Translations under genes and position numbers: made by a program
The notes under the pieces: model-generated
The model's input: the letters and a program-made list of their open reading frames with translations, nothing else
Databases searched by the model: none
What the model was told of the DNA's origin: nothing
Assembly (NCBI GenBank): GCA_029243145.1
Contig: JAQWSQ010000143.1
Coordinates: 1 to 64,000 of the forward strand
DNA: 64,000 nt
Source of the DNA: Planctomycetaceae bacterium
GTDB taxonomy: Bacteria; Planctomycetota; Planctomycetia; Planctomycetales; Planctomycetaceae
Direction: 5' to 3'
Shown: positions 9,048-27,547 of the stretch, piece after piece
Numbering within the stretch: position 1 is the first letter of the stretch
How the letters are laid out: each line of letters opens with the position of its first letter

Positions 9048-9163
9048 TGTTCAATTTTTCTAACAAAACCGTTCAGAATCCTCAGCTTGGTTGCATTTTT
9101 GAAGATCCTGCCATTAAATGGACCTCTTAAAGGTGAGTTCCCGGCGAAGTTGTCGGGCGAGAT

Positions 9164-9187
9164 CGTTCTTTCGAGAGAACGGTTTTT
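9164..9187 (+). terminator. Possible terminator downstream of the XRE gene
   Basis: A six-base-pair stem CGTTCT/AGAACG (9164-9169 with 9176-9181) with a six-base loop is followed by GTTTTT. The stem is short, and it also sits in the leader of the next small gene, so it could be a leader hairpin instead. Confidence 0.45.
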
Positions 9188-9220
9188 GAGAGTTTATGTA
9201 TTTTGGAAAGGGATCCAAAG

Positions 9221-9385
9221 ATGAAACTTAATGTTCTGAAGAAATTTGCCGCTCTTGTGAGCGTAATTTGTGTCTCATTTGCTGCCGTTGGTTGTGCACC
9301 TCCTGCCGATGATGCAGCGACTGGTGGCGATGCCCCAGCCGCTGGTGCTGCCGATGAAGGCGAAGGCGGATCGGCAACCGAATAG
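9221..9385 (+). CDS. Small predicted lipoprotein
   Basis: 54 residues, ATG at 9221 preceded by GGAAAGGGATCC. The first 25 residues are a signal peptide with the lipobox FAAVGC; the mature part is a short Ala/Gly/Asp-rich acidic tail (from APPADDAATGG to the C-terminal GSATE), probably unstructured. Such tiny lipoproteins are common in planctomycete genomes and have no known role. It is followed 18 bases later by a strong terminator and so is probably transcribed alone. Confidence 0.65.
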   Translation: MKLNVLKKFAALVSVICVSFAAVGCAPPADDAATGGDAPAAGAADEGEGGSATE

Positions 9386-9403
9386 GTTCCGATTGACTAC
9401 CCG

Positions 9404-9439
9404 AAACGCTGCGGTTCATTGGCCGTAGCGTTTCTTTTT
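9404..9439 (+). terminator. Rho-independent terminator after the small lipoprotein
   Basis: AAACGCT-G-CGG pairs with CCG-T-AGCGTTT around the loop TTCATTGG, followed by CTTTTTG. The strong stem and T-tract end the small-lipoprotein transcript and separate it from rhaB. Confidence 0.8.
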
Positions 9440-9526
9440 GCGCGGTTTTCATCTTCCCACGGATCGCGTTATGATGTTTGACCTGTCAGCAATTGCGAAG
9501 CATGACCACACACTGAGAGCAATACG

Positions 9527-11008
9527 ATGACCGCGCGATGTTATCTGGGAGTTGATCTAGGCGCCTCGAGTGGCCGAGTCGTGGCAGGCTTATTTGACGG
9601 ACGCAAAATTGAACTCAAAGAATTGCACCGATTCAGCAATGGGCCCGTGAATGTTGGGGGCTCTCTCCGCTGGGATGTGCTTCAGCTTTGGTCGGGGATT
9701 CAGGACGGCCTCACAAAAGCCAAGCAGGAATTTGGTAGCGACATTGCTTCGGTTGGTGTCGATACGTGGGGTGTCGATTATGTGTTACTTTCAAAAACAG
9801 GGGAAATTCTCGGGCAACCCTATAACTATCGTGATTCCCGCACAGACGGGATGATGGAGAAAGCGTTTCAGCGTGTTCCCCGGGAAGAAATCTTCTCCAG
9901 CACGGGATTGCAGTTTATTCAGATCAATACTCTTTATCAGTTGATCGCCATGCAGCAAGCCAACCCTGAGTTGATGGAGTTGGCCGATCAGTTTTTGATG
10001 ATGCCCGATTTTTTCAACTGGTGTCTGTCGGGAAGTAAAGTTGTCGAGTTTACCAATGCGACCACGAGTCAATGTTACGACCCCGATACCCGCGATTGGT
10101 CGTACGATCTTCTCGGCAAATTTGATATCCCTACAGAAATGTTTGGGGAGGTCGTCGCACCGGGAACGAAGCTGGGACAACTTCGACAGGATGTTGCTGA
10201 ACGAACCGGATTACCGCGACTGGATGTGATTGCTCCCGCCACGCACGACACGGGTTCTGCCGTTGTGGCCGTGCCGACGGAGCTGACGGGATCGTCCAAT
10301 TGGGCTTACCTCAGTTCGGGAACGTATTCTCTGTTGGGTGTGGAAGTCCAGGAAGCCATTCTGTCACCAAGAGCCTTAGAGTTAAATGTGACCAACGAAG
10401 GAGGCGTGGATGGAACCTATCGACTTCTGAAAAACATTATGGGCTTATGGCTCATCACACAAATTCGTGAATCCATTCAACGAGCAGGCAGGACCATCGA
10501 CTATGGTCAATTGGTCCAGCGAGCGTCAGTGGCTGAACCCTTCCGCTCACTGATCAATCCTGATGACCCCAAGTTTTTAAATCCCTCTGACATGCCCACC
10601 GCGATTCGTGAATGGTGTCGTGAACATGGACAGCCTGAACCGGAAACGGAAGGGCAATTGGCTCGATGTGCCTTTGAAAGTTTGGCGCTGAAATATCGTG
10701 TGGTTCTCAACCAACTTGAAGAGTTGACCGGTACAGCGATTGAGGTCATTCACATTGTTGGCGGTGGTTCGCAGAACGAACTTCTGAATCAGTTTGCCGC
10801 AAATGCTTGCGGGCGACCGGTCATTGCCGGTCCTGTGGAAGGGACCGTGATGGGGAATGTTCTGGTTCAGGCACGTTCTTTCGGAGAGATTGGTTCACTG
10901 TCAGAGATTCGGGAAGTCGTGCATGATTCCGCGGCGATCAAACAGTACGAACCAACCGATCTCTCACGTTGGGACGAAGCCTCGGAACGTTTTGCTGAAT
11001 ACACATAA
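9527..11008 (+). CDS. rhaB: Rhamnulokinase (FGGY-family carbohydrate kinase)
   Basis: 493 residues. It should phosphorylate L-rhamnulose at C1 with ATP during L-rhamnose (and, by promiscuity, related deoxysugar) breakdown in the cytoplasm. The FGGY N-terminal domain shows [21 protein letters not shown] and [15 protein letters not shown]; the C-terminal domain has [32 protein letters not shown] and the ATP-site [13 protein letters not shown]. The order NVTNEGG...KNIMGLW is characteristic of RhaB rather than xylulo- or glycerol kinase. No rhaA, rhaD or rhaM lies nearby; ftsY follows 48 bases later. Confidence 0.92.
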
Positions 11009-11056
11009 GCTTTTTGTTGATTTTCTTTTGAGAGATACTCCAGGAATTGCGACTGT

Positions 11057-11998
11057 ATGGGACTTTTCGACCGCCTGAAAAAAGGCTTACAAAAAACACG
11101 TGACGTACTGCGAACCGATGTTCGAGACTTATTCAAACCGGGCGAGATCCTCGACGACGAAAAACTCGAACAGTTCGAAGCACGTTTGATTCAATCCGAT
11201 ATGGGAGTTACCGCGGCAACCGCCATCATCGAGGAGCTTCGCGAGCATCACGGCGGACGCACGGTAGATATCGACGGGATCTGGAAGACTGTCAGCGACA
11301 AGCTTCGCAGTCTGCTTGCCGGAGAAGGACAAAATCTCTGGGATGTTGAGGATCCGTTATCGCCTCTCAACATGCAGGAAGACGGTCCAACCGTGATTCT
11401 TGTCACCGGCGTCAACGGAGCCGGGAAAACCACCAGTATCGGGAAACTGGCCAACTACCTGCATAAAGCGGGCAAGAAAGTCGTTCTCGGGGCGGGAGAT
11501 ACCTTCCGGGCGGCAGCCGTGGAGCAGTTGACGTTATGGAGTGAAAGAATTGGTTGTGAAATAGTGACACAGCCGAGCGGCTCTGATCCCGCAAGTGTGG
11601 CTCATATCGCCTGTCAGCAAGGACTTGATCGGGGTGCCGATGTCATCATCATTGATACCGCCGGTCGTTTGCAGACACAAAAAAATCTGATGGATGAACT
11701 CGGCAAAATCCGCCGCGTGGTTGATAAGGTCATCCCCGGCGCACCGCACGAACGTTTGTTGGTTCTCGATGCCACCACCGGTCAAAATGGAATTTCCCAA
11801 GCGACCAACTTTTCTGATGCGGTCGATTGCACCGGGATAATTTTGGCGAAGTTGGACGGCACGGCGAAGGGTGGCGTCGTCGTGGCCATTCGGCAGAAGA
11901 TGGGGATACCGGTCAAATATGTCGGCGTCGGAGAGCAGATCGACGATCTGCAAATCTTTGACCCAACCTCGTTTGTCGATGCACTCCTCGAACAGTAA
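11057..11998 (+). CDS. ftsY: Signal recognition particle receptor FtsY
   Basis: 313 residues, an SRP GTPase of the NG type that docks ribosome-SRP complexes at the membrane. The four-helix N domain starts at residue 1 (GLFDRLKKGLQKT), so the acidic A domain of E. coli FtsY is absent, as in many bacteria. G motifs are complete: GVNGAGKTTSIGKLA, the insertion-box region DTFRAAAVEQL, DTAGRLQTQKNLMDEL, LDGTAKGG and the terminal VGEQIDDLQIFD. AGGAATTG lies upstream of the ATG. It lies between rhaB and hemL, all in one direction with short gaps. Confidence 0.96.
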   Translation: MGLFDRLKKGLQKTRDVLRTDVRDLFKPGEILDDEKLEQFEARLIQSDMGVTAATAIIEELREHHGGRTVDIDGIWKTVSDKLRSLLAGEGQNLWDVEDPLSPLNMQEDGPTVILVTGVNGAGKTTSIGKLANYLHKAGKKVVLGAGDTFRAAAVEQLTLWSERIGCEIVTQPSGSDPASVAHIACQQGLDRGADVIIIDTAGRLQTQKNLMDELGKIRRVVDKVIPGAPHERLLVLDATTGQNGISQATNFSDAVDCTGIILAKLDGTAKGGVVVAIRQKMGIPVKYVGVGEQIDDLQIFDPTSFVDALLEQ

Positions 11999-12020
11999 TC
12001 ATTGATAAGGCATAGTTTCG

Positions 12021-13313
12021 ATGACACTCAATCGCACCAAAAGTCAGGCACATTTCCAACGAGCTTCAAAGGTCATCCCCGGTGGTGTGAATTCCCCCGC
12101 ACGGGCCTTCGGTGCTGTCGGCGGAGAACCATTGATCATCGAACGGGGTGAGGGTGCGTATCTGCATGACATCGATGGTAATCAATTGATTGATTACATC
12201 GGTTCTTGGGGACCTCATATTCTTGGACATCGTGATCCCGACGTGATGGCTGCGATTGAAGGGGCTCTGAAAGTGGGGACCAGTTTTGGAGCACCCACGA
12301 CTCTCGAAACCGAGATGGCCGAATTGATTGTGGAAATCGTTCCCTCCATTGAAAAAGTTCGGATGGTCAACTCGGGGACGGAAGCGACCATGTCGGCTGT
12401 TCGTCTCGCACGCGGTCATACCGGACGCGATAAAATCATCAAATTTGCTGGCTGCTATCACGGGCATGTCGATTCGCTTCTTGTTCAGTCAGGCAGTGGT
12501 GCGTTGACCTTGGGAACGCCGTCCAGTCCCGGTATTCCCGGCGGTTGCACACAAGATACCATCGTGCTGGAATACAATAATCTCGACGAATGTCGAGAAG
12601 TCTTTGCACAAGAGGGAAAAAACATCGCCTGTCTCATTCTGGAACCGGTGGTCGGCAATATGGGATGTGTCATTCCGCAAGCGGGTTTTCTGGAAGGTCT
12701 TCGCGAACTGTGTACCGAATATGGAGCACTGCTCATCTTTGATGAAGTGATGACCGGTTTTCGCGTCGCTCTGGGAGGCGCTCAGGAGCGGTTTGGTGTT
12801 ACTCCCGACTTAACCACCTTGGGGAAAATTATTGGCGGCGGAATGCCGGTGGGAGCTTACGGCGGTAAAGCCGAAGTGATGGATTCGATCTCTCCCACAG
12901 GTCCCGTCTATCAAGCGGGAACCTTATCGGGAAATCCGGTGGCGATGGCAAGCGGACTAGCCATGCTGCGGAAGTTGAAAGCTACGAACCCTTATTCTGC
13001 ACTCGAAGAGATGACGAAAACTTTGGTGACCGGTCTCAATAACGCCGCCGAACAAGCCGGCCTGCCGCATTCCAGTTCTCAGGTCGGCAGCATGTTTACG
13101 CTCTTCTTCAATCCCGAAGAAGTGACCAGTTATACGGTCTCTGCCAAGAACAACACCGAGCGTTTCGCAAAATACTTTTGGGGCATGATGAATCGTGGCG
13201 TCTATCTGCCATGTAGCCAATATGAAGCGAACTTCGTCTCAGCCGTCCATACAAAAGAAGACATTGAAAAGACGATTGCCGCGGCGCATGAAGTCATGCA
13301 GGAAATTGCTTGA
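12021..13313 (+). CDS. hemL: Glutamate-1-semialdehyde 2,1-aminomutase
   Basis: 430 residues, a class-III PLP aminotransferase that converts glutamate-1-semialdehyde to 5-aminolevulinate in the C5 route to haem. Markers are [16 protein letters not shown] at the start, [18 protein letters not shown], the cofactor-binding [10 protein letters not shown], and the Schiff-base lysine in [18 protein letters not shown], then [17 protein letters not shown]. Length is normal for the family. AAGG lies 10 bases upstream of the ATG; the gap to ftsY is 22 bases, so they are probably cotranscribed. A repeat block follows. Confidence 0.96.
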
Positions 13314-13319
13314 GGTGCT

Positions 13320-14045
13320 GCGATCATTTTTTTGACGCAAAGACGCGGAGAGGCAGAAGAAACGCAAAGAGCTTCATCCTGTGATCGGGTGGCACTGGTC
13401 GGCTTGTCCGCCAGTGTGAGAATTTGTCTCACGCAGAGGCGCGGCGGTGCAGAGGTAAACAAAGAACACGCTCAAAACGGTGTACCGTCAGCCACAAGAG
13501 GCTCGCAGTTTTGTAGGTCAGGCTGTGCCTGATGAAAGAAAGAACTCACCACGAATGACTCGAATCAAACGAATGGGGGTTTCTCATACAATGTTGCAAA
13601 AACAGAATGGCTGGTGCTCCGTGAAACGGAAGCCCTCGGTCAATTGATCGTGAAGGAATTGACCGCGGATGTCGCAGATAAAAAAGGGTGGCACTGGTCA
13701 GCTTGTCCGCCAGTGTGGAAAAATACTCACGCAGAGACGCAGCGGCGCAGAGGAATACAAAGAACTCACCCGCACCTGGGTAGCCGCGATAGCTGAGCTA
13801 TCGCGGTTAATTGAAGTGGATAGTTCTGTTTACTCGTCAAACGGAGTGCCGTATAACAACAGACATCGTCGATTTCGGAGAACATTTAACTTCGCTAAGA
13901 CGCGCTCATCAGAAACAATGAATCTGATGAGTGAAGATCAGCGGTTATTAGTGTTCTTGAGATTGTTCACTTCGTGTGGACATCTCGGCGACGTGATTCG
14001 CATGCTCACGCAAGCGAGAGCTTGGCACCCGGCTCGATAAGTCAT
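13320..14045. repeat. Composite non-coding repeat block
   Basis: No credible gene lies here. An 85-base direct repeat occurs at about 13387-13475 and 13685-13770: GGTGGCACTGGTC, GCTTGTCCGCCAGTGTG, CTCACGCAGAG, CGCAGAGG and ACAAAGAAC in the same order. The motif ACGCAGAGRCGC also starts the block (13333) and recurs at about 4335 and 53938. A second hairpin is CTCATCAG/CTGATGAG (13905-13912 with 13924-13931). Near 13999 is the GCATGCTCACGC...GAGAGC...GGCACCCGG module shared with the other two blocks. Confidence 0.7.
13784..13806. repeat. Perfect 10-bp hairpin after a shared ACCTGGGTAGC flank
   Basis: CCGCGATAGC and GCTATCGCGG are exact reverse complements around a TGA loop. The flank AGAGGAATAC...CACCTGGGTAGC matches that of the hairpin at 53981-54003, although the stem sequences differ. 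There is no T-tract, so it is not a simple terminator. Confidence 0.7.
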
Positions 14046-14065
14046 ACAGAAAACTGAATAGCGAA

Positions 14066-15667
14066 TTACTTTTCGATTCGCTTCACCCGAAAGACGTGAT
14101 CGTGATTTTCTCGATCATCATCAATCGAGGTTCCGCCATCGTCTTTGAGGTTCTTACCGAGGCTGTAAATGATGGCTCCATCGTCATCGACACGGTACAC
14201 GAATGACTTCCCCGTGTAGGGGTCGTTGGGTAATTTCGAGAGATAGTCGGGGACCAGTTTGTTCAGTGAGGAAGGTAACTCATCGACTGATTTCTGATAC
14301 GCGGCGGTCGCGATACCAATCTCCGACAACAGCGTATATGCCTCACGTCTAGTTCCCGCGACATGTATCTGTTCCAACGCGGGCGAGAGCAGCCCCAAGA
14401 GGACTGTCGTCATCTGCTTATTACGTTGTTCGGGTGTGGCAAAGACGGAGAGGGCAAGGTTTGTGGGTGTGTTGACCTGTTGGTATGTCGTTTGAAGCTT
14501 CTCACTGAGTTCAGTCATTGCTGTCGAACGTTCAGTAAAATTATTGTGGGCCAGTGCGAGCTGTACTTGATCGTGATACTCATTGATGCCGATCAGTACG
14601 ACATTCCAATCGAGGCTGTTTTGAATAAACAGTGAAAGCAGTTTACTGACAACATCCGATCCGAATTCCACACCGAGAAGTACGAACAAATCGGCAGAAC
14701 CTTCCTCGGGGGTTAATTGAGAACTAGCCATGCGCTGGATGATGTCGAGTCCGAAACAACGCTCACCCTCAAAGGCTTTGGAAAAGTTGGCAAGAGGAGC
14801 TAATTTGGAAAGTTGAAGGGAGTAATCTTTGAGCAGATCGGCAGATATGCAATCGGCGTTTGCCAACTGCTTGTCTCCCCCGTGAGCCACACTTTCCAAC
14901 GCAATTCCCACGAGCATTTCGATGATTGTTGATCCTTGAGCGGTATGACGGGCCAAGCGATGGATGGCCAGAATGTCGCGGATCGCTTCTTCAGGTCGAT
15001 TTTCACCGAGAGCGAGCATGGCCCTCGCTGTGAGCATGCGGCTGATCTCACGATGTTGCTGAATATCGGGCAGCAGAAAGGTGAGCATGGCTTCTGTTTC
15101 TGAGCCACCGACCATGGGGCGATAGTAGTGGGGTTGTCTGGTGCCGGCGAGGACCGTACTTAACGGCTTCTCATTGCGAACCAGCCATTGCTTTATCAAG
15201 GGGGCTTCGTCTGAGGTCCAAGGACGTCCCATCGCCAAATCATATTGCATTCCTGTGGTGGAACTTTCGTCGAAGTTGATTTCGACTCCGGCTTCTTCTG
15301 CGATGACACCAAGACCGACGAGATACGGACCACCCTCAGCAAAAGGGTCGGTTCCCAATTCTTTCTTCATGCGTGTGAAAAATTCTGGAGAATCGAGAAA
15401 TTCTTTGCTCTGGCCGATGGCCTTCCAATAGAAAACCGCAGCGTTTGTCTCCGGCGTCACTCCCTGAGACTTCTGTTGATTGAGCCAACGAGAATAATCG
15501 ACGAGGCCGTTCTTCATCAGCGGACCCGTGATATAGGTGGTCTCTTTGGAGATACGAAAGGGGAGAGGCTTGTTTGCAGATTCGTTGGGTGTTTCTTGCG
15601 CATCGGAATCGGAAACATGAGAGATCATCAAGAAGGTGATCAGTAGAGAATTTGTGAGCAGTCGCAT
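14066..15667 (-). CDS. Large secreted protein of unknown function
   Basis: 533 residues from the ATG at 15667, where a signal peptide begins (MRLLTNSLLITFLMISHVSD, cleavage near SDAQE); GGGATC lies just upstream. The longer frame to 15808 has an implausible leader. The body is mainly helical, with segments rich in Leu/Ala (LLPDIQQHREISRMLTARAM, EEAIRDILAIHRLARHTA). The C terminus has KLPNDPYTGKSFVYR and DGAIIYSLGKNLKDDGG, a tail I associate with planctomycete secreted proteins containing pseudopilin-like C-terminal segments, from memory only. No enzyme motif was recognised. Function is unknown. Confidence 0.7.
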   Translation of the reverse strand: MRLLTNSLLITFLMISHVSDSDAQETPNESANKPLPFRISKETTYITGPLMKNGLVDYSRWLNQQKSQGVTPETNAAVFYWKAIGQSKEFLDSPEFFTRMKKELGTDPFAEGGPYLVGLGVIAEEAGVEINFDESSTTGMQYDLAMGRPWTSDEAPLIKQWLVRNEKPLSTVLAGTRQPHYYRPMVGGSETEAMLTFLLPDIQQHREISRMLTARAMLALGENRPEEAIRDILAIHRLARHTAQGSTIIEMLVGIALESVAHGGDKQLANADCISADLLKDYSLQLSKLAPLANFSKAFEGERCFGLDIIQRMASSQLTPEEGSADLFVLLGVEFGSDVVSKLLSLFIQNSLDWNVVLIGINEYHDQVQLALAHNNFTERSTAMTELSEKLQTTYQQVNTPTNLALSVFATPEQRNKQMTTVLLGLLSPALEQIHVAGTRREAYTLLSEIGIATAAYQKSVDELPSSLNKLVPDYLSKLPNDPYTGKSFVYRVDDDGAIIYSLGKNLKDDGGTSIDDDRENHDHVFRVKRIEK

Positions 15668-16064
15668 ACCGAGATCCCGTCGTGGAGGTTTGTGCTGAGG
15701 TGGAGAAACCACCTTCCTCATGATAACGGAGAAACTTGTAGAGCGGATCACAAAAAAAACGAGCTGTCGAGTAAAGCCGTTCACAGCAGTCGTTTGTGCA
15801 TAAAACATGCTGAGTTGTTCGGGGGACGATCATCGGGTCAAAGACCGGAAGGTGATGTGCGACGTCTCCAGCGGTCAATCGAACGACCCAAAACTCGCCA
15901 CCCCGAACGACTCAAGCATGGTGTTGACTAAACTTAGGTCACATTAGGCAAGAGGTCGGGAATTTTCCGGTTTTTTTGGAAAATTCCTACGGGGGACCGG
16001 GGAAAGTCCGTCAGGAAATCCTGTCAGCAGACTGATTGAGCGTACTCAAATCATTTGCTGGTTG
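15668..16064. other. Gene-free stretch with a perfect inverted repeat
   Basis: About 400 bases between two minus-strand genes. GGAATTTTCC (15959-15968) and GGAAAATTCC (15978-15987) form a 10-bp stem with a T-rich loop. Next to it is GGGGACCGGGGAAAGTCC, and near 16012 CAGGAAATCCTG. These may include the terminator of the giant gene, but no T-tract follows on the minus strand. The promoter of the secreted-protein gene should also lie here. Confidence 0.45.
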
Positions 16065-19000
16065 TTAATTGGCTGCCGGGCGATGTTTTTTGAGGTCTGC
16101 TATATAAGTCACCAAGCCGCACAACAGCACCAATAATCCGATCAGGATTAATTCCATGGGCAAGATGATGCAGAGGAGAATACCCACCGCGGCGAGTCCG
16201 TAACCGATCTCTCGTGGTGAGCAGTTCGTCCAGCGTCCCGAGAGAATGCCGCGAACAAACCCGATAGAGATACCAATCCAGAGCAAAATCCACAGAAGTC
16301 GTCTTCCACCCGAGAGTGAGTCTTCTGGTTTAATATTGAGTGCCAAGCGAGGTTCGCCACCCACCTTCGAGAAAGTGATCGGCTTGCCGAACGTGGGGAC
16401 ATCAAACTTCAGCGACATTCCCGTTGATTGAGAGGTGCCGAGAAGTTCTGTTTGTTGACTGCTCACTCCAACATCCATTCTACCAATAAGGCCAAATTTC
16501 TCCTGTTGGGATCCAGCATTCGAACCATTCAGATTCTCTAATAAAGAATTTCTCCCCCCATAAAACATCCCGCCACCTCCAAATCCTCCACTATTAGGAG
16601 CGGCTTGGACTTCGTTTTGGATTCTGGATTCGACGATGGACAAAGTGATTTCATTATTTCGTTTAAGCTCTTCTAGGGAAGGCGGTACTCCAAACGGATC
16701 GTTGAGTACGTCGATGAAATTCTGTTCGCGTTGGTTCTGCAATTGATTAGTAAACACGTCGCTCATTCGGCTTCGAGTCGAGCTAGATTGCTGATCACCC
16801 GATTGTCGACCAAACGAGCCCGATTGGTCTTTGTTCGAGAGCCGTTTTTTGAGCTGCTGTTGAGGTGCGGCTTGTTGTTTCTCTTTTGCGTTTGGTTTTG
16901 CCGCCGGTTTTGGGGACGACTTCTGCAAATCGAAGAAGAGTTCTACACTGTCGTCAGGCTGCCCATTTCCATTATGGTCGATGAATGTATTATTGCCGAT
17001 CAATGCCCCATTGGACGAACGCAGCACGCCTCCCTGTGATTGGGCATCGAGGGTGTCAAAGTTATCGAGGAGATAGTTGTAGGTGTCTTGTTGAATGGCT
17101 TGTTGCTGTGTTTCCAGATTTCGTTGCAAACGTCGCGTGTTCTCCTGGAGCACTCGCTGCTCTTCTTCCAGCTTTCCAGATATGCCCAACGACTTGCCTT
17201 TAGAGAAACTGAGATATTTCTCTTCACCACGCTTTTGAGACTCGATGCGACGATTTAATTGCTCGACATTGTAGAGGAGTTTTTGCTGCAACCCGGCTTC
17301 TTCGCCTTCTCCTGCGGAGGAGAGCATTAGATTAATCTCTTTGAGTTGGGTGACCTGTAAATCGACGAGGGCTTCTGTCGATTCTTGTGGACTGAGATTG
17401 GTCCGACCTAAATCATCGACAAGTTTCGCGTCGAGTGATTCTGGCAACCAAACGGTCCAAGCGGTTCGAGTGACGGGGATGCCAAACTGGGCACTCTCGC
17501 GAGTTGTTACGACGGAAGGAGCGGGAAGATCGATTTCATCTCCCCACGATTGTAGTCCGCGGACCAGATCACCTTCCGAAAGTCGTCCGGCGAGAATGAT
17601 TTCCACAAAGAACGACAGATCAGATTCACTCGTTTTGGGGAGCGGCAACAAAGTGACCGAGACTTCTCCCAGTTTTGTCACGACGGGACGGACGGGCTGT
17701 TCTTGAACCAATGTTGCCAACAGCCGGGCATCATCGGGCAGATGAAGTGCGAGAAATTGGCGGTTGGAATTTCTCACCAGATAAGAGGCTTTCGTCCGCC
17801 AACTTCCATCCTGTTCAAGAACGGTGGTGAGTTCGGCGAAGTTGATAATCGCGGCAGCGCCTCGTTTTTGTTCAAACGAACGAATCTTCCAGGAAGGAGG
17901 CGTACTCTCAGCCCGTACGCGAAATAATTCGGTCGCTTTTTCGACGAGTGTATTTTCGGGATTGATGGGAAGCTCGGACGTTTGAATGCGTTCGATGGCC
18001 GAATCTTCTTGAGCCGTGAGCTGGAACTGCGACTGATTGACCAAGGCCGCAAAATGACGTTGTCGATCCAGCAGGCTGAACTCTTCTTCCTCCTCGCCGT
18101 GAGGGAATTGCTCCACCGTTAACTGCGGAACCGTCAAGACGCCGTCGGCGGGAAGTGGCAATGTGGCAATGGGACTGACAAAATAGCCCTTTGCTTGCGG
18201 CTGCGTCAGGAATAATTTCCAGCGAACGCGACCATCATCGGTTAATTCGGACGTGTAACTTTGCAGCAGAGGAGCGTCGCTGAAATCGAGTTTGCCTGCC
18301 AACGACTCGGGAGTCGTGAAGACGAATCGATCACTGGTGGCCTGAGAGACATCCCATTTAATGGCCAACTGATAGATGACGGCAGAATCTGTCACGTTCA
18401 CAATGGCGACGGTGTCTGCTTTCAGTTGCGGCTTGGTTCTCTCAATGAGAAGTGCCAGGTAGCGGTCTAATATCTGGGTGGCTTCGAAGGCAAAATCGGG
18501 GATTCTGTTTTGCAGAGTTAATAACTCGGCAGGTAACTCGCGGGGATTGATGGCATTCCAGCCGTCAATTTCGTCAATGGAAAGCTGGTCGCTGCCGGTT
18601 TCCCAGATCGCCATTTGAGTTTTGTCTTGGCTCATTTCCAGCAACGTCGGCAGAATGACTTCGGCCAGTTCGTCCATCGGCTCTTTCCGCAGATATCCTT
18701 TCAAGGCAATTTCCAGTTTGCCAGAGAGCACACGCGGAAACTCGACAATCAGTAAACGGTCATCGTCGGCAGAAAACGTTTGATACCAATCCTGGAGTTC
18801 GGTCGCCTGGACATCGAGGACGACATAGTTTTCAGGCAACAGAACGGAAACTCGCGACCGGGGCGTGGCGGCCAAATCGATATGATATTTCGTGGCAACT
18901 TCAACCCGTGCAGATTTCACAACGAGGCCGTGACGAGTTTCTGCCGTTGCTGCCGGGTCTTTACGGATGATTGTTAACGGTAACTGGTAATCGTTGCGAG

Positions 19001-22000
19001 CATAGCGATAAGCGTATTGAACATTTTCTTTCAGGATCGGTTTGCGATTTGTCGCCGGGAATTGTGAAGATTCGAGTTGAGAGAGAAAATTGAATGTGCC
19101 GGGTCGGATTCGCAATTGTTCTTCGGCCAGTAAACCGATCAAACCTTTCTCGCCGGTCACTTGGAGCGGGATCAAATGTGGATAGTTCAATTCCAGCGGG
19201 TCATCCCCAAACTCGACCGCTTGAAACATGGTGAAATGAATTTTTGTTTCCGTCTCGACTTTGCGTCTCAAAAAGATTCTCAGCAGACGCTTGCCCTCTT
19301 CTTCGGCAAGTTCCCAGCCACCCACATCGAGACCGGTGATCGATTGCAATTCCCAGCCTTCGGGAAGCTGGAACAAAGTTTCTTCGATGCTGCCTTGAGG
19401 GATTGAGTACGCGGCTGATTGAATGAGGCTGAGCCCGGCATCCGTCGCATTGAGAGCCGACGTTGTGTCCACATGGACGATTCGGTCGAAGCCGGCTTCT
19501 TCTCGCGAAGGTGACCACGAGACTGTGATCGTGTCACTCGACGCCAAAGGCAACAGAATCGAATCCTGATCGTTTTCGCGGACTCTGCGGTAAGACGTGG
19601 TGGCACCGTTCACCTGCACCAATAAATTGTCGGCTGGTAGTTTGACCGTCAAACGGCCAATCGTGCCTTGCGTAAGTGGGACGGTGAATCGGCCTCCGGC
19701 TCCCGTTTGTTGATACGGAAGTCGAAACGCCAGATCGAGAAGATGTTGACCCTTGGTGGGCAATTCCACGCGATATCCAGAGCCTGCTTTTGTCTGAAAG
19801 GGAAGTAACGCGACCGGTTCTCTATTCAAAGTGGCCGTCTCCAACGCGACTCGATCCAGCGGGATGACCGCAGATTCTGCTTGTTCTGAGAACGATTGGA
19901 GTACGAATCGAGCGGTGACTTTGATCGTGGCGGCTTCTCCTTCGCCGTCAACTTCCGCTAAAAACGCCACCGATGAGACAGACGCTTCGGCGGGGAGATC
20001 GAGTCCGATGGGATTCTCGGGATGTGCGTGATTCCACAATTCCAGGTACTGTTTGCGATTCAAGAAAATCTTCTCGGCAGCAAGAGGGTCTTCGCCCGGT
20101 TTGTAAGGAACGATGACCGACCAATCTGTGGGACGCACGACGGGAGGAACTTTGGCGGGCATCACGTTTGCTTGGATCGGCGGTTGTGGTGCCTGATTCG
20201 GTGGTGCCGCTTCAACGCAATTCGTGATCGAGAAAGCGAGAAGTAACAATAATGTCGTCGTGACAGTTTTTGGTAGACAGCAACTCATCAATCGACAGCA
20301 CATTGGCAAGCAACAGCACGTCCAGCAACAGCCGACAATCCAGATGGTTGAGGCGAGCAGGCTACCAACCACAATCCCGTCCAGAATGAACAACCCGTAC
20401 GCGGGCCAGAAGGGCATGAGTGCCAGCGGGATTGTCAGCGTTAACACATGCAGCATCAGTCGTCGCCCTAGCGGACGCCTTCGCAGGACGTAAAAGATAA
20501 TCAGCGTGAGCGAGATCACTAGGGCAGTCAGTCCACTGGCCGATTGACGCCGCAAATACCTGATTCTTAGAGGTGACTCTGCGAAATCGGTTTGAGTTCC
20601 GTGGTAAGAAAAGTCTGAGACCCGATGATCGTCGGGAATTTGTAAGGCGACATCGACAGAGAGACGCGCTCCGGTCGCTTTAGTGTCATCCGAGTCACTT
20701 ACAATACCATCAGGGATCTGAATTGCTTCCGTCTGCGCCGTCTCGGCTTTTGCTTCTACCGGTGCGGCAAGTTGCGGCATTGCCTGTCGGGTCATGTGGG
20801 GAGGAGCGGGACGGGTGCGTCGTACTTCATCGGCCAGCATCAACTTAGGTTCTCGGGTTGCCTCCTCGGCGACCGATTCCGCAGCTTCCATGTCGCTCAT
20901 CGGTTCTTCATTGATGCCAAATTCCACGTTCGTGCCTGCGCTGAAAGCCGCTCCCCCATAACCAGAGCCTTCGCCACCATATTCTGCTCCGGCAGCCACC
21001 TCATATTCATCGTCGTCAGTGGCAATTCCCAACAAAATCTTAGTCTCCGGTTGAGCATTTGTAAGTACGAAAACAGCAAGGAAGCTAACACCAATTAACA
21101 GAAAAAATCCTAAAACAAGTAACGTCGATCCCAGACTTCGAGAACCCGTTCTGAGAACAAACCAGATCACGCCGAACATTCCAACCGCGGTGACTAATAC
21201 TCCCAAAACGCGGAAAAAATTAACGCGGGCAAATGAGCCCATCATGCGCGTTAACAAACTGTCTGGCTCGAACCGATGCTCGGATTGAAAAATCCCCGTC
21301 GAGTCCACAAACTCCAAACTCTCGGGAGAATAGACCCACCAATTAGAGGTGAGCACTTCCACCGCTTGCGCCTTGCCGTCTACTTCGATAGACAACCCGG
21401 GAGGCGATTGCTTGAGAACGCCTGAGCGTTCGAGGGCTTCTGATTGAGACTGGTAGACCATTTTCAGAACGCGGCTTGATCCCGCTTCTGCAGAGTTGAT
21501 GAGTGGAATCAGATGATGATCGTTCATGCCGCGGACTTCGATCGGTTCTCCGTCGAGTGTTGCCGACCAGAGATTTGAGTTCTCGGGGAGTTTGACAAGG
21601 AGATTTTGGACACCGGCGGCGGAGAAATTGATCACTGCTTCATGCTGCCAAGTTCCCGACTCACTGAGAATCGACGTGATTGACATTTCCTCGGCAATCG
21701 CCAAAGGGACGACCGTGCGATCAAATCGAACGGACGATAACTCGATGGAGTAATCGGGAGTGACGTATTGGTAGGCGGCAACGATTCGTTCTTGTGGCTG
21801 ATAGGCAATATTCGAGACGGGAATGTCTCCCGGATCGAGTTCTCGCAAGGGAGTGGCGGTTAAGCTGGAGGGTTTTACGGTCAAGTTTTGTTCTGGCCCC
21901 GCTTCAACGGCGACATAGCCGTACTGACGTTCCGCGTCATTCAATAACAACCGCGGCGCGAAGACCGAACTTTCTTCTTCGTCAATTGTTTCGGTGGTTT

Positions 22001-24158
22001 GCACGTAAACGGAAATGGTGCCGTAGAGCCTGCGGTCGAATGTCAGCTTCCAAGTGATTTCTCCCGCGTTGGGTGCCGAAGGAACCTGCTCGACGATGCG
22101 CTGCGGTCCACCGAACGTCACAAAACGTACGTTTTTGCCTGCCGACTCGGGAAGTTGAAAGGAGAGTTCGCGAACTCCTGAGCCTTCCACGGTCACATCG
22201 GCTTGCAAGTAGGAGCGAAGAGCGCGCGGATCTTTGCGAATGAGTGAGAGCATTCTTGCCGAAAGATGCGTGGGGCGTCGTCGAACGCTGAAGATACCGG
22301 TGAATTCGGTGTCCTGATATTCAAACGCCAAGCGTTTTTCATTGTCATCCAACAAGACGCGATTCAAACTAAAGAGTTCCACGGGGCGAACTTCATAATC
22401 GGAATGAGACGCGAGAAAATAACGCCCATCGAACAGGTTGACTTGAGGTAACGTCAACTGCGGCAATTCAATTTCGGTGGCTTCTTCATCTGGGTCGATG
22501 GTGGGAGGCCACGCATCGAGATCTTGAACGGCAATCAATCCCGCTTTCAGTTCTTGGCCGGGCATTAACGGTTGCGCAAGTTTCACGCGAAGTTGTCTGG
22601 TTCCGGCGGCTTCCGATTGATCTTCCCATTCTTGCGGTTGACCATTCAGGGTTAATGCCGTCGGTAGCCATTCTGCGGGAAGCTCAATTTGCAGTTCAAA
22701 CAAAGGAGCGTATCGGCAGGCCAAAGTGATGTCGGCTTGATACTGAATCGATTCGTATTGGAGTTCCAAGAGGTTTTGAATATTGGCGATGAGTTCGCGG
22801 TCTCGTGTTCTCATCAAGAGTTCGAGCGTGAAGTCTTGACGATAGAACTCGAAGACTTGCGGGCTGACACGATCAGGAATTTCTGCCACAAACTTAGGCA
22901 TCTGTTCGCGCGCAAACAGTTTGGCGCGTCGTAAGCCGTCTTGTGCTACAAATTGCAAACGGACGGCTGCCGGGTGAGTGATAATGACATGGCCGACATG
23001 AGAATCGACGTTTTTGATATTTAATTGAGGGACGGGCCATTCTTCATCGGGTGGCATTGAAAGAACGCCACGTAATTCAATCGTCTGCGACCCTGTCATC
23101 GGTTGACGATAATTGAGTGTCAGTAAGATTTGATCTTCGTCGTCCGGGTCTTCGTTCATCTCCCAGGAATCGAGACCTCCCGAAATGACGTCGGCAATTT
23201 CCAATTCCATGGGGACACTCAAGAAAATCTGATTGAGCGATTGTCCATAGAGTTGGAGCCGAGTAAGAGACCGCCAGCGAATCTCTCCCGGAACGGTGTC
23301 GACACCGATCAGGGAATTTGCGAAGACCAGCGAGTCGGTGGTCGCTTCTTTCTTGCGGTCGGTGATTTGCAGCATCAGCTTGTTCGCATTGCCAACCGGG
23401 AAGGAGTAGACGGCTTTTTCTTCAACGGCAGTGGGGCGTTCGAGAGATCGACCGGAAAGTATCAAATGTTTCCCGGCGGGAATTGAAATCGACATTGTGG
23501 CTGCCGGGCCTGACGGCAGATTGAAGGACGCGAGTTGATCGCTTCCCATGGCCGCCAGTCGAGAGACCAATTGCAACGTGAGTTGGAATTTTCCGGTTTG
23601 ATTATGGAAGAATCGAAGTTGTCCCTGATGATCTCGCCCGAGATTTGCAGGCTCATCTCCGAGTATCGCTGCTTCGATGGCTATGTTGTTGAAAAATAAC
23701 GGAATGGATTGCCAACCATTCGTGAATTGACGGAGATCGAGACGGGCCGTCACCAAGAGTGAGTGATCCTCAACCGTAGCCTCGTATTCAATTCCTGTGA
23801 GCACCAGATCAGCAGATTCTTTAGGCCTCACGGCTTGATTATCTTTTGCCAGAGTCCACAAAGCGTCGAATTCTGCGTTGTTCAGCAGGACACCCTGTTT
23901 ATCGCGATGCAATACCGATTGGAACTGGTCAATCGGGACATAAACACGCTCGGGATTCTCGGGGATTTTTTGCGCATTGGCCGAAGCAGAGCACAACGTC
24001 GTGACGAGCAATAGGCCAAACATCCGCCAGATCGCTCGTGGTTGTCGTATGAAATATGCTGTTGTCTGTTGAGGCATTTTCTTGATTCCACGTTTCGTGA
24101 AACAGTCATCCTTGTCCGACAGACTCTGTCGAACAACCGCATCAGGCTGGTCGTACAT
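16065..24158 (-). CDS. Giant membrane/secreted protein with two tandem beta-rich modules
   Basis: Up to 2697 residues. The ATG at 24158 overlaps the upstream stop as TAATG and has AAAGGA just before it, implying translational coupling; the ATG at 24077 (signal peptide from MPQQTTAYF) is the alternative. The first module begins near residue 69 (VYVPIDQFQSVL) and runs as beta-rich sequence to two TM segments at about 975-1030. A low-complexity linker follows, then TM segments and a cluster of nine cysteines in about 19 residues near 1276-1298. Next comes a signal-peptide-like LLLLLAFSITNCVEA, and a second module starts near 1340 (SVIVPYKPGEDPL). A coiled coil lies at about 2286-2370, a Gln/Ser/Gly-rich region follows, and TM segments end the protein. 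It looks like a fusion of two paralogues. Function is unknown. Confidence 0.75.
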   Translation of the reverse strand: MYDQPDAVVRQSLSDKDDCFTKRGIKKMPQQTTAYFIRQPRAIWRMFGLLLVTTLCSASANAQKIPENPERVYVPIDQFQSVLHRDKQGVLLNNAEFDALWTLAKDNQAVRPKESADLVLTGIEYEATVEDHSLLVTARLDLRQFTNGWQSIPLFFNNIAIEAAILGDEPANLGRDHQGQLRFFHNQTGKFQLTLQLVSRLAAMGSDQLASFNLPSGPAATMSISIPAGKHLILSGRSLERPTAVEEKAVYSFPVGNANKLMLQITDRKKEATTDSLVFANSLIGVDTVPGEIRWRSLTRLQLYGQSLNQIFLSVPMELEIADVISGGLDSWEMNEDPDDEDQILLTLNYRQPMTGSQTIELRGVLSMPPDEEWPVPQLNIKNVDSHVGHVIITHPAAVRLQFVAQDGLRRAKLFAREQMPKFVAEIPDRVSPQVFEFYRQDFTLELLMRTRDRELIANIQNLLELQYESIQYQADITLACRYAPLFELQIELPAEWLPTALTLNGQPQEWEDQSEAAGTRQLRVKLAQPLMPGQELKAGLIAVQDLDAWPPTIDPDEEATEIELPQLTLPQVNLFDGRYFLASHSDYEVRPVELFSLNRVLLDDNEKRLAFEYQDTEFTGIFSVRRRPTHLSARMLSLIRKDPRALRSYLQADVTVEGSGVRELSFQLPESAGKNVRFVTFGGPQRIVEQVPSAPNAGEITWKLTFDRRLYGTISVYVQTTETIDEEESSVFAPRLLLNDAERQYGYVAVEAGPEQNLTVKPSSLTATPLRELDPGDIPVSNIAYQPQERIVAAYQYVTPDYSIELSSVRFDRTVVPLAIAEEMSITSILSESGTWQHEAVINFSAAGVQNLLVKLPENSNLWSATLDGEPIEVRGMNDHHLIPLINSAEAGSSRVLKMVYQSQSEALERSGVLKQSPPGLSIEVDGKAQAVEVLTSNWWVYSPESLEFVDSTGIFQSEHRFEPDSLLTRMMGSFARVNFFRVLGVLVTAVGMFGVIWFVLRTGSRSLGSTLLVLGFFLLIGVSFLAVFVLTNAQPETKILLGIATDDDEYEVAAGAEYGGEGSGYGGAAFSAGTNVEFGINEEPMSDMEAAESVAEEATREPKLMLADEVRRTRPAPPHMTRQAMPQLAAPVEAKAETAQTEAIQIPDGIVSDSDDTKATGARLSVDVALQIPDDHRVSDFSYHGTQTDFAESPLRIRYLRRQSASGLTALVISLTLIIFYVLRRRPLGRRLMLHVLTLTIPLALMPFWPAYGLFILDGIVVGSLLASTIWIVGCCWTCCCLPMCCRLMSCCLPKTVTTTLLLLLAFSITNCVEAAPPNQAPQPPIQANVMPAKVPPVVRPTDWSVIVPYKPGEDPLAAEKIFLNRKQYLELWNHAHPENPIGLDLPAEASVSSVAFLAEVDGEGEAATIKVTARFVLQSFSEQAESAVIPLDRVALETATLNREPVALLPFQTKAGSGYRVELPTKGQHLLDLAFRLPYQQTGAGGRFTVPLTQGTIGRLTVKLPADNLLVQVNGATTSYRRVRENDQDSILLPLASSDTITVSWSPSREEAGFDRIVHVDTTSALNATDAGLSLIQSAAYSIPQGSIEETLFQLPEGWELQSITGLDVGGWELAEEEGKRLLRIFLRRKVETETKIHFTMFQAVEFGDDPLELNYPHLIPLQVTGEKGLIGLLAEEQLRIRPGTFNFLSQLESSQFPATNRKPILKENVQYAYRYARNDYQLPLTIIRKDPAATAETRHGLVVKSARVEVATKYHIDLAATPRSRVSVLLPENYVVLDVQATELQDWYQTFSADDDRLLIVEFPRVLSGKLEIALKGYLRKEPMDELAEVILPTLLEMSQDKTQMAIWETGSDQLSIDEIDGWNAINPRELPAELLTLQNRIPDFAFEATQILDRYLALLIERTKPQLKADTVAIVNVTDSAVIYQLAIKWDVSQATSDRFVFTTPESLAGKLDFSDAPLLQSYTSELTDDGRVRWKLFLTQPQAKGYFVSPIATLPLPADGVLTVPQLTVEQFPHGEEEEEFSLLDRQRHFAALVNQSQFQLTAQEDSAIERIQTSELPINPENTLVEKATELFRVRAESTPPSWKIRSFEQKRGAAAIINFAELTTVLEQDGSWRTKASYLVRNSNRQFLALHLPDDARLLATLVQEQPVRPVVTKLGEVSVTLLPLPKTSESDLSFFVEIILAGRLSEGDLVRGLQSWGDEIDLPAPSVVTTRESAQFGIPVTRTAWTVWLPESLDAKLVDDLGRTNLSPQESTEALVDLQVTQLKEINLMLSSAGEGEEAGLQQKLLYNVEQLNRRIESQKRGEEKYLSFSKGKSLGISGKLEEEQRVLQENTRRLQRNLETQQQAIQQDTYNYLLDNFDTLDAQSQGGVLRSSNGALIGNNTFIDHNGNGQPDDSVELFFDLQKSSPKPAAKPNAKEKQQAAPQQQLKKRLSNKDQSGSFGRQSGDQQSSSTRSRMSDVFTNQLQNQREQNFIDVLNDPFGVPPSLEELKRNNEITLSIVESRIQNEVQAAPNSGGFGGGGMFYGGRNSLLENLNGSNAGSQQEKFGLIGRMDVGVSSQQTELLGTSQSTGMSLKFDVPTFGKPITFSKVGGEPRLALNIKPEDSLSGGRRLLWILLWIGISIGFVRGILSGRWTNCSPREIGYGLAAVGILLCIILPMELILIGLLVLLCGLVTYIADLKKHRPAAN

Positions 24159-27100
24159 TAGGAGTCCTTTCCTGTGTCGTCGGTCGAATCACTCGGCGTC
24201 TCCGAAGTTTCCGGTGGGGACTTAATTTCGGCGGAACCTTCCTCGGTGATCGAGGATTTTTGCAGGCCGGGAAGCTTCGCTCTCCAATCTGTACCAAAGC
24301 AAGTTTGTATGCCCCACAAGACTCCCACGGCGAAAATGCCATAGCGAGCCGCGGCCAGAATGTGTGCGATCATGTCATCATCTTTGACGGCATAGATGGA
24401 CGTCAAGAAGACGAGAAGCAAAACCACACCGAGTCGGTTTTCCCAACTTGTGTTTTTCAACAACCACCCAATCACCAACAAAGTTGCCGAGAGGACCCAG
24501 ACCATGTAGTGCATTTCCCACCACGAGACTCGCGTGGAAGTGATGTTCCCCATTGTTTGGAAAGAGTAGCCGATTCCTTCGGCGGGGAATTCGATAGCTC
24601 CCGTGGGGACTTCTCGAATCCAGTCGTTCAGTTCGTCGGTCGTAATTTCGGGAGAGGTTGGGAATCCAAAGAGACCAGCCGAAATTCGTGTTTGTTGATC
24701 ATCATTGAACTGGGACGGCGTGCCGACCAGATGGAATTTATCCGGCACCCAAATTGCCAAGCGACACTGTTGGACGGCTGCCGTTCCTCCCTGACTGCCA
24801 ATCTGAGGGAATCCGAGTTGTAAAGTTCCCAGCGGACCTTTGAATTGTGGAGGGTTAATCGGCCATAAAAACTGAATCGTCAGAGTCAGTTCTTTTTCGG
24901 TGACGTTGGATCTCGATATGTTGACGTAATACGCATCATACTCATCGGTACTTTCTTCGTCTTCGGCTTGTTCGAGATCCACCCGTTTGCCATCCACTAA
25001 GACACTCAACGGGTCGGCGTTGACGGGAAGTTGTACGAGCAATCGTTGTCGCTCACTGGTGTTGATTAAATAGCGAGCACGATAGGTGGCTTGTGGATCA
25101 TATCCGACAGCAATTTCGACCAACGCTCGCGAAATGACTGTCTCCACCACGGATTCAATTTCATATTTCCGAGATCGGACGCTTAATGTGACGGGCTGCG
25201 TGAAATAACGATACGCCTGATCGCTGGCTCGTGCATCCATGGATAATTCGCGACGATCAATGGCTTCACTTCGCTCCGCGTCAATATCAGACGACACGGA
25301 CAAGGCACGATCTCGTGCGATACCGATTTCACCGACAGTTCTCACTAAAGCGATTTCGGTTCCGTCTTCGACATCCGTTAAAGCGGGCATCGCCTTCGGT
25401 AACGAGATTTCGATTTCAGAAAGTTGTTCGTCACCTTCCCGTGTCAGCGGAAGTTCGTACACAACATTGAAGATTTGTTCGCCCATGGCGTCTTGTGTCA
25501 GCTCGATGGTCCAGATGACCCAACCATCCACCGACTCTTCCGCGGCGGTTTGACTTTGGATCGATTGCCCGCCGCCGGAAGGAACATCAATGGTCACGAA
25601 TTCTTTGACTGCTTCGGGAACGGCAATTTGGAAGAATCGAACCGGAGCATGTTCGACCTGATAGCGAATGGATGACAGGATCGCTGCTTGATCTTCATTC
25701 ACTTCCAGATAAGTCTCCACGCGAGCGGAAAGACGAGTCGGTTTGCGAACGGTCCGAACAGTGACCGACAAAGGGCGAGATTGGTAAGACCAACTTGCAA
25801 TCAATCGAGTCGATCCGTTCCCCTGGTTGCCAACATTAACGGGGACATCGACGGGGACGACGCCGTTTGTCTCTTCTTCGACGGTGTCAATTTCCAACGA
25901 AGCCGGTGCATAGATCGAGATGATTCCCGTTTCCTGAAAGACGTTTTGTGGTTCTGGGACGGGGAGGGACAATTTTGCTTCAGTCGCATCTTCGAGATCA
26001 ATTCGACCTTTCAGAATCACCTGAACATGGCCCAGGCATTTTTCGTTAAAAGAGACGGTCATCACACCCGTAGCATCATCGATGGTGTATTCCCGCATAT
26101 TTTCTGTGGTGACCGATTCGATAGTGAGATCGGTGGGAAGTTTGATTTTCAGATCGAACACGCCTGCTCGATCAATCTGATAAGACAGACGCGAATGGAC
26201 GACCAGCGAGCTTTTCTGGAAAACATGATGGGTCTGATTTTGAACTTGCACCCTGGGTTGAACAGGTTGGACGCCACCAATCAAAGTGAAAACGGGGCTG
26301 TAAAACTTGTAATGAACTTGAGCCCGATTACGCACAGCTTGAGGAACCGACGGTCCATCCACGCGGATCAGTCCTTCTTGTTGCTCGACGATTAATCGTG
26401 TGCCGTCCGAATGTGCGATGGACAGTGTGCCGCTTTCACGGATCGCACCGCGTACCTGAATTCCGCTAACGAGGCCATCATCATCCGTTCCGGCCAGTGC
26501 AAAATTCTCTTCCGGAAGAGGTTGCTCAGTGTGGACCTCGAGGGCAAACTTCTTCGTGATGGCCTGTAAAAGTTTGATTGTGATGATCTTGGCATCGTCC
26601 GTTTCCTGGACGGTTTGACGTTGTACATTCACCGTGGGAGAAGAGACGCCCAGGATCCGATGAGTTTTGGGGACGAGAATCTGCAGTTCGGAAAGTTCTC
26701 CTCGCAGCACATCGACATCGAGAAGAGCTTCCGTATGCACCAATCCGTCAGCAAGAGTGACGACGGTCTGATTCTGAACGCTGGTCAATAGTTCCATTTG
26801 AGGCTTTGTGCTGGCTTTCGGAGTCCAGGAGATCTCCATCCGGTTGGTGGCACCCAAGTTGACTTTCACCTGTGAGACTTCGCCTTCCACTTCAACAGGA
26901 GTCACAATTGATTCCGGCTTGATGCTGATGGTTTGCTCGGCGGTGGGAACAGTAATCTCGGCAGTTGTGATTCCTGACAGAGGTGTTTCCAGAGTGATCG
27001 TTCGTTGATCGGGTGAAGATTGAATTTGGACTAAGAGTTCCAGTGAAAGTTGATACGTTCCTTTGCCGGGAAGTTGAACCAGGTAGGCACCATCTCCGGC

Positions 27101-27547
27101 CCCTCGAAAGAACGCCTCTTCATTGTCGAGAGTCGCCTTGCCGACGGAGGCTCCCTTGAAGGGAAGTTTAATGGCCGACCAACTCTCGCTGTTCGATTTG
27201 AGCGATAGCTCAACTTGAATTCGTGCGACTTCTTTTTCGACGGTGACTCGGTAATGGGATTTCGTGAGGACCGCTTGCGGGCTTTCTGGCCGATGATTTT
27301 CCAGCAACTTCATCAGCTTTTGGAGGTCGGCATAGGGCAGGATTGCTGCAGCCCCTTTTTGACCAAAAACTTCCTCTAATTTCTCATAGGGGATGAAAAT
27401 GGACGGAGAACTCTCCTTTTTGGCCTCTGATGGCCCCGCTTCGGTCGTTGGTTCGTCTTGCGCCATGAGTCGAGAGGCCGCGAATGGTAGTCCCGATAAA
27501 ATACACACGCTAACGATCGAATAGACCGTAACTTTAATAATAGACAT
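24158..27547 (-). CDS. Large secreted/membrane protein, paralogue of the giant protein modules
   Basis: 1129 residues. A signal peptide (VTVYSIVSVCILSGLPFAAS) precedes a start motif IFIPYEKLEEVF near residue 51, then SHYRVTVEKEVARIQVELSL and LPFKGASVGKATLDNEEAF. These match in order and spacing the starts of both modules of the downstream giant protein (VTARLDLRQF, IPLFFNNIAIEAAIL; VTARFVLQSF, IPLDRVALETATL). The body is predicted beta-rich throughout. At about 1005-1082 there are three TM segments (MVWVLSATLLVIGWLL, RLGVVLLLVFLTSIYAV, YGIFAVGVLWGIQT), then a short acidic Ser/Thr tail. Its stop overlaps the next start, so the two are coexpressed. I do not recognise a described family. Confidence 0.75.
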   Translation of the reverse strand: MSIIKVTVYSIVSVCILSGLPFAASRLMAQDEPTTEAGPSEAKKESSPSIFIPYEKLEEVFGQKGAAAILPYADLQKLMKLLENHRPESPQAVLTKSHYRVTVEKEVARIQVELSLKSNSESWSAIKLPFKGASVGKATLDNEEAFFRGAGDGAYLVQLPGKGTYQLSLELLVQIQSSPDQRTITLETPLSGITTAEITVPTAEQTISIKPESIVTPVEVEGEVSQVKVNLGATNRMEISWTPKASTKPQMELLTSVQNQTVVTLADGLVHTEALLDVDVLRGELSELQILVPKTHRILGVSSPTVNVQRQTVQETDDAKIITIKLLQAITKKFALEVHTEQPLPEENFALAGTDDDGLVSGIQVRGAIRESGTLSIAHSDGTRLIVEQQEGLIRVDGPSVPQAVRNRAQVHYKFYSPVFTLIGGVQPVQPRVQVQNQTHHVFQKSSLVVHSRLSYQIDRAGVFDLKIKLPTDLTIESVTTENMREYTIDDATGVMTVSFNEKCLGHVQVILKGRIDLEDATEAKLSLPVPEPQNVFQETGIISIYAPASLEIDTVEEETNGVVPVDVPVNVGNQGNGSTRLIASWSYQSRPLSVTVRTVRKPTRLSARVETYLEVNEDQAAILSSIRYQVEHAPVRFFQIAVPEAVKEFVTIDVPSGGGQSIQSQTAAEESVDGWVIWTIELTQDAMGEQIFNVVYELPLTREGDEQLSEIEISLPKAMPALTDVEDGTEIALVRTVGEIGIARDRALSVSSDIDAERSEAIDRRELSMDARASDQAYRYFTQPVTLSVRSRKYEIESVVETVISRALVEIAVGYDPQATYRARYLINTSERQRLLVQLPVNADPLSVLVDGKRVDLEQAEDEESTDEYDAYYVNISRSNVTEKELTLTIQFLWPINPPQFKGPLGTLQLGFPQIGSQGGTAAVQQCRLAIWVPDKFHLVGTPSQFNDDQQTRISAGLFGFPTSPEITTDELNDWIREVPTGAIEFPAEGIGYSFQTMGNITSTRVSWWEMHYMVWVLSATLLVIGWLLKNTSWENRLGVVLLLVFLTSIYAVKDDDMIAHILAAARYGIFAVGVLWGIQTCFGTDWRAKLPGLQKSSITEEGSAEIKSPPETSETPSDSTDDTGKDS

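Follow-up and report, generated by a model that had tools for sequence, protein, structure and literature searches.

Introduction

Ribophorin I/Ost1 works beside the Sec translocon and the oligosaccharyltransferase, and is built of tandem beta-sandwich domains of one fold that lie on the extracytoplasmic side and are followed by a C-terminal transmembrane (TM) segment. The same single-domain fold is present in the N-terminal domain of M1 aminopeptidases and LTA4 hydrolase. BatD, a component of Bat/MoxR-VWA systems, is a membrane-anchored periplasmic protein of beta-sandwich type that is paired with a VWA protein, and large proteins made of tandem beta-sandwiches are often adhesins. The envelope of planctomycetes is unusual, with an enlarged and invaginated periplasm, and what shapes it is, to our knowledge, an open question. 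In the genomes of Planctomycetes, giant genes have been recognised as a size class (PMC5177795).

In this study, a stretch of 64,000 nucleotides from a Planctomycetaceae bacterium (contig JAQWSQ010000143.1), hereafter the window, was analysed with respect to two adjacent genes, A and B, which encode three related giant modules, A, B1 and B2. These modules resemble ribophorin I at the level of fold only. They differ from it in being bacterial, in showing no detected sequence similarity and in having about five predicted domains in each module and three modules in each cassette, and an oligosaccharyltransferase partner was not seen among the recurrent neighbours. Unlike M1 aminopeptidases, they form a tandem array with no catalytic domain and no HExxH motif. 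The A-B set shares with BatD the membrane anchor, the beta-sandwich and, in some loci, the pairing with a VWA protein, but no BatD Pfam match and no MoxR neighbour were seen. VWA proteins of YfbK type are neighbours in 11 loci; they are not homologues of A or B and are not adjacent to them in the genome of the window. Gene B exceeds the giant-gene threshold of 5 kb used in PMC5177795, where the size class is described, as far as that account of giant genes extends, without this family or architecture.

Results and Discussion

Both genes lie on the reverse strand. Gene A (24158..27547) encodes a protein of 1129 aa with an N-terminal hydrophobic segment, the ectodomain of module A, a juxtamembrane motif, three TM helices and a charged C-terminal tail, and gene B (16065..24158) encodes a protein of 2697 aa in which modules B1 and B2 are fused. 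The two ORFs were found where the preliminary description had placed them, adjacent and joined at a TAATG; this stop-start overlap was read in the sequence at 24156..24160 (reverse strand, ctcctaatgtacgac), one base being common to A and B. An overlap of −4 (ATGA type) was present in eight of 32 homologous A-B loci. Translation of B may in fact begin at Met28 (24077), as the signal-peptide-like stretch lies after this residue. By a contig scan with exact peptide patterns, which yielded near relatives only, close relatives were located on JAURQH010000063.1 (Planctomycetota) and JABURQ010000195.1 (Planctomycetaceae).

Elsewhere in the window, the gene downstream of B (14066-15808, 580 aa) carries a C-terminal stretch weakly similar to type II pseudopilins (TIGR01710, E 0.011, below the cut-off), and a protein of 790 aa encoded at 41909-44281 contains a DUF4159 domain (E 1e-69).

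The ectodomains of B1 (aa 61-960; 21279..23978, reverse strand; delimited from profile comparison and tree) and B2 (aa 1346-2240; 17439..20123, reverse strand; from profile comparison and model) were compared with that of A using alignments from 41 loci for A and from 32 loci each for B1 and B2. In profile comparisons with hhalign, the alignments spanned 869 columns for A and B1 (E 2e-53), 856 for A and B2 (E 1e-52) and 852 for B1 and B2 (E 9e-49), and the module pairs scored 433-465 versus 16-23 for controls with reversed or column-shuffled profiles. The similarity between A and B1 was detectable by plain sequence search (E 7e-17), and that of B2 required profiles. The opening of A reads IFIPYEKLEEVF...VARIQVELSLKSNSESWSAIKLPFKGASVGKATLDNEE, that of B1 RVYVPIDQFQSVL...LLVTARLDLRQFTNGWQSIPLFFNNIAIEAAILGDEP and that of B2 VIVPYKPGEDPL...IKVTARFVLQSFSEQAESAVIPLDRVALETATLNREP. 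The common opening noticed previously is therefore the start of a likeness that extends over about 850-870 columns per pair, with negative controls, and homology of the three ectodomains along their full length (about 870 residues), beyond the opening, was confirmed at the sequence level. Internal repeats of about 175 residues were also detected, residues 435-890 of A aligning with residues 257-696 (E 7e-14), and were similar in B1 and B2.

A quick tree of 132 modules, with long branches and an unsure deep order, was constructed, on which the labels A, B1 and B2 required seven changes versus 62 when shuffled. One group, of 42 A modules, was recovered with an SH-aLRT value of 97. A group of 34 B2 modules was recovered with a support of 100 and holds one row labelled B1, which occupies the second position in its protein. 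The lineage with two modules is placed near A. The clades of A, B1 and B2 are largely separate; the triplication thus predates the split, and the diversification, of many families.

The fold was modelled with AlphaFold2 for A (41 sequences, mean pLDDT 79, pTM 0.45) and B2 (32 sequences, pLDDT 83, pTM 0.35), the low pTM values meaning that the arrangement of the domains in the models is unreliable and that a straight rod is an assumption. Except for the membrane part and the tail, both models are all-beta, in agreement with the beta-rich ectodomains of the preliminary description. Domain 1 of A (aa 87-246; 26810..27289, reverse strand) is a beta-sandwich like the N-terminal domain of M1 aminopeptidases (4qhp, Z 13.6, rmsd 3.2 Å, 153 residues). 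Residues 430-798 of A (25154..26260, reverse strand) match, as two tandem domains, the ectodomain of ribophorin I (8pn9_E, Z 14.0, 318 residues), with an rmsd of 21 across both domains, the inter-domain angle differing; by Foldseek, A matched ribophorin I with E values of 4e-9 to 1.5e-8. In B2, residues 45-391 matched Ost1/ribophorin I (Z 12.7), and residues 391-562 and approximately 215-386 matched M1 N-domains (Z 11.7 and 10.8). The two models thus share the solved folds that they match, which, together with the profiles and the tree, upholds the earlier view that one module is present in three copies. The M1 N-domain fold is seen, at rmsd 3-4 Å over about 150 residues, in at least one domain from A and two from B2, and each module is predicted to be a tandem array of about five beta-sandwiches of the M1-aminopeptidase-N-terminal/ribophorin-I type (Z 11-14).

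Neither A nor B matched any Pfam or NCBIfam family at curated cut-offs, the sub-threshold matches being chance ones only; the BatD, alpha-2-macroglobulin and VIT families of Pfam were unmatched at threshold and ribophorin I was unmatched at E up to 1. Against PDB sequences, B gave no match at E up to 1, and the profiles of A and B2 gave nothing convincing. A description of the A/B family was not found in the open-access literature searched. The module, first presented as undescribed, is thus one for which neither a Pfam or NCBIfam family nor a paper was found, but the fold of its domains is known; as far as tested, no description appears to exist of its architecture, of the ancient triplication or of the operon link treated below.

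The M1 N-domain fold might suggest degenerate enzymes derived from M1 peptidases. Such an origin is of almost negligible probability, given that the aligned part comprises only the non-catalytic N domain, and the absence of HExxH from all 73 aligned proteins (41 of A and 32 of B) speaks against an enzyme reading of A and B.

Hydropathy, motif comparison and the models were used to locate the membrane segments, all on the reverse strand. Three hydrophobic helices are predicted at the end of A; in B, two helices follow B1, several lie in the stretch between the two modules, and another two close the protein. The TM helices of A (aa 1012-1084; 24296..24514; hydropathy and model) are preceded by the juxtamembrane motif G-x3-FPTeGxxYxYxxLGGxxxIxVxWW (aa 983-1010; 24518..24601; motif comparison). 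In B, a TM hairpin follows B1 (aa 984-1031; 21066..21209; hydropathy); the juxtamembrane motif of the B1 side (aa ~1163-1205) and the TM helices that connect to B2 (aa 1207-1311) are encoded at 20226..20672; and the motif GGLSLpfdiPTxGQxLxFSKVGGxPKLAL of B2 (aa ~2579-2610) and the terminal TM pair (2621-2678) at 16125..16424. A related juxtamembrane segment therefore stands before TM helices in all three modules, being clearest between A and B2 (FPTeG..Y.Y..LGG vs diPT.GQ.L.FSKVGG) and weaker in B1. The membrane anchoring of both proteins previously noted agrees with these predictions, and the hydropathy suggests that the rods would be anchored in the inner membrane with periplasmic ectodomains. 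In one of the 32 distant A proteins (locus L126), a LysM domain was detected within A (E 2e-8), which fits wall contact in that lineage.

Between B2 and its juxtamembrane motif, the model shows a helical, low-complexity tail (aa ~2260-2570; 16449..17381, reverse strand). In several relatives (e.g., L060, L054 and L073) the tail after B2 contains NNLKQIGLALHNYHE, as is typical of pilin-like proteins of the DUF1559 type, and PF07596 (DUF1559) matched five of 32 B members (best E 4e-6). In another B protein (L094), aa 2360-2453, near the end, gave a match similar to squalene-hopene-cyclase-C (E 1.7e-8).

To the envelope or secretion role initially suggested, this topology adds weight on the envelope side, which is likely; the one line of evidence for secretion is the likeness of fold to ribophorin I. 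A secretion or folding accessory, whose modules would, like ribophorin I, hold periplasmic proteins as they emerge, is in our opinion quite unlikely. Ribophorin I/Ost1 is indeed at the top of the structural matches of both models; however, the fold occurs in M1 peptidases too and therefore does not specify function, Pfam gave no ribophorin I match, and a recurrent Sec or glycosyltransferase neighbour was not found.

With regard to distribution, A was matched in 161 of the 170 genomes of the family of the window and B2 in 153 of the 170 at E up to 1e-20. The nine family genomes lacking any A match also lack B2, and further family genomes have weak A matches only and no B2; these weak matches could represent a second cassette. 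Across Planctomycetota, 83 of 292 sampled genomes were matched by the A profile. The phyletic range, a point raised in the preliminary description, is thus near-universal in the family of the window and recurrent in the sampled phylum. A search for the cassette in plasmids gave no match.

The order of the genes is also conserved. In all 32 family loci with both ORFs complete, A and B are neighbours and share one orientation. In L062 and L067, both fully covered, A is not followed by B, and a full B is located elsewhere in both genomes. Among 40 distant loci, most have A followed by a fused B, two (L095 and L099) have B1 and B2 as separate genes, and four (L121, L122, L127 and L128) have one two-module gene. 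Since some lineages encode B as two genes, the giant B is a gene fusion. A split B with an in-frame stop and a start close behind was also observed in L047, which may be an error, L095 and L099 being better evidence for the fusion.

The genome of the window has a second, divergent cassette on another contig (C113, locus L008), with proteins of 1110 and 2223 aa; the first part of its B aligns to B1 (E 7.5e-27) and the second to B2 (E 2e-16). Its ORFs, 8479-11811 and 11813-18484, follow the same three-module plan. By eye, an inositol-monophosphatase-like gene lies just upstream of this cassette, and likewise in L130.

An adhesin or other outer-surface protein would be in line with the frequency of adhesins among giants of tandem beta-sandwiches. 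Planctomycetes are, moreover, rich in giant genes, which in the account of PMC5177795 are mostly surface proteins or PKS/NRPS. The presence of multiple TM helices, both C-terminal and at the B1-B2 junction, suggests instead retention in the inner membrane, and a gene set kept almost one-to-one throughout the family is unlike a variable adhesin, so that we consider a location at the outer surface very improbable.

Concerning the gene neighbourhood, a gene for a large YfbK-type VWA protein, itself a membrane protein, is situated directly upstream of the cassette in 11 distant loci belonging to two clades of the tree. It is preceded by an ECF-type sigma gene, identified by homology search, in nine of the 11, a count that leaves out L101 and L127, where the VWA ORF reaches the end of the sequence. 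In nine loci, the VWA gene and the cassette are −4 to 57 nt apart. When five of the VWA proteins were scanned with Pfam, four had an N-terminal zinc finger similar to zf-HC2 (two above the cut-off), the fifth having none.

Sigma or VWA genes were absent from the upstream DNA of the two-module loci L123-L125, and ECF sigma and VWA genes are not adjacent to A-B in the window. PF12450 was unmatched in several complete family genomes that carry A, for which reason a VWA partner of the cassette is not obligatory, nor is the signalling link a general one. The survey of conserved neighbours called for at the outset thus yielded the upstream VWA gene in the 11 distant loci, but no general conserved neighbour of the cassette in the family of the window. 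Recurrent neighbours included no Sec, glycosyltransferase or oligosaccharyltransferase type and no MoxR ATPase.

Other observations were made around the cassettes. In the genome of the window, ECF sigma and VWA genes are found together on another contig (L135, 7380-10249), unlinked to the cassette. A few genera (L050, L057, L070, L071 and L072) have a codirectional gene for a ParA-type ATPase as the next gene upstream of A, and an ORF that by eye looks like an M1-type peptidase (L144, 4041-6263) is found upstream of a two-module cassette, at a distance of a few kb.

The tight sigma-VWA-A-B order in distant loci of the two clades could indicate a dedicated sensor, in which the rods would be the extracytoplasmic input of an ECF sigma/anti-sigma-VWA system and would have no structural role. 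We regard this as unlikely, as most of the family of the window retains the cassette without a sigma or VWA neighbour, several complete family genomes have no PF12450 protein, and the six large ectodomain modules in one genome, from two cassettes, would be much for a sensor.

The reading that we tentatively favour, at a likelihood somewhat short of even, is that the A-B set is a periplasmic scaffold or tether anchored in the inner membrane and able to be wired to an ECF system. It would consist of three paralogous rods, each of about five tandem beta-sandwiches of the M1-N/ribophorin-I type. The juxtamembrane beta motif and the TM helices would hold the rods in the inner membrane, and because of this anchoring they would project into the periplasm. 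One rod would be carried by A and two by B, joined through a membrane-spanning linker, and the genes would therefore supply a fixed set of A, B1 and B2. The three may assemble in one complex, which would form a long periplasmic tether from the inner membrane to the wall or outer layers, and a membrane VWA protein controlling an ECF sigma factor could sense the state of this complex. The VWA and ECF sigma genes are within the same apparent operon as the cassette in two lineages, other than that of the window.

Conclusions

In its fullest form, which is possible and rather doubtful in our view, the proposal is that Planctomycetota possess a previously unrecognised heteromeric inner-membrane complex of three M1-N-type rods, which would help to organise the enlarged periplasm and, in some lineages, would report its state via a VWA anti-sigma protein to an ECF sigma factor. 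The A-B set, which devotes about 11.5 kb to three giant modules, is a concrete candidate for envelope shaping that can be knocked out, and the operon link with a sigma factor in other families makes a signalling role directly testable.
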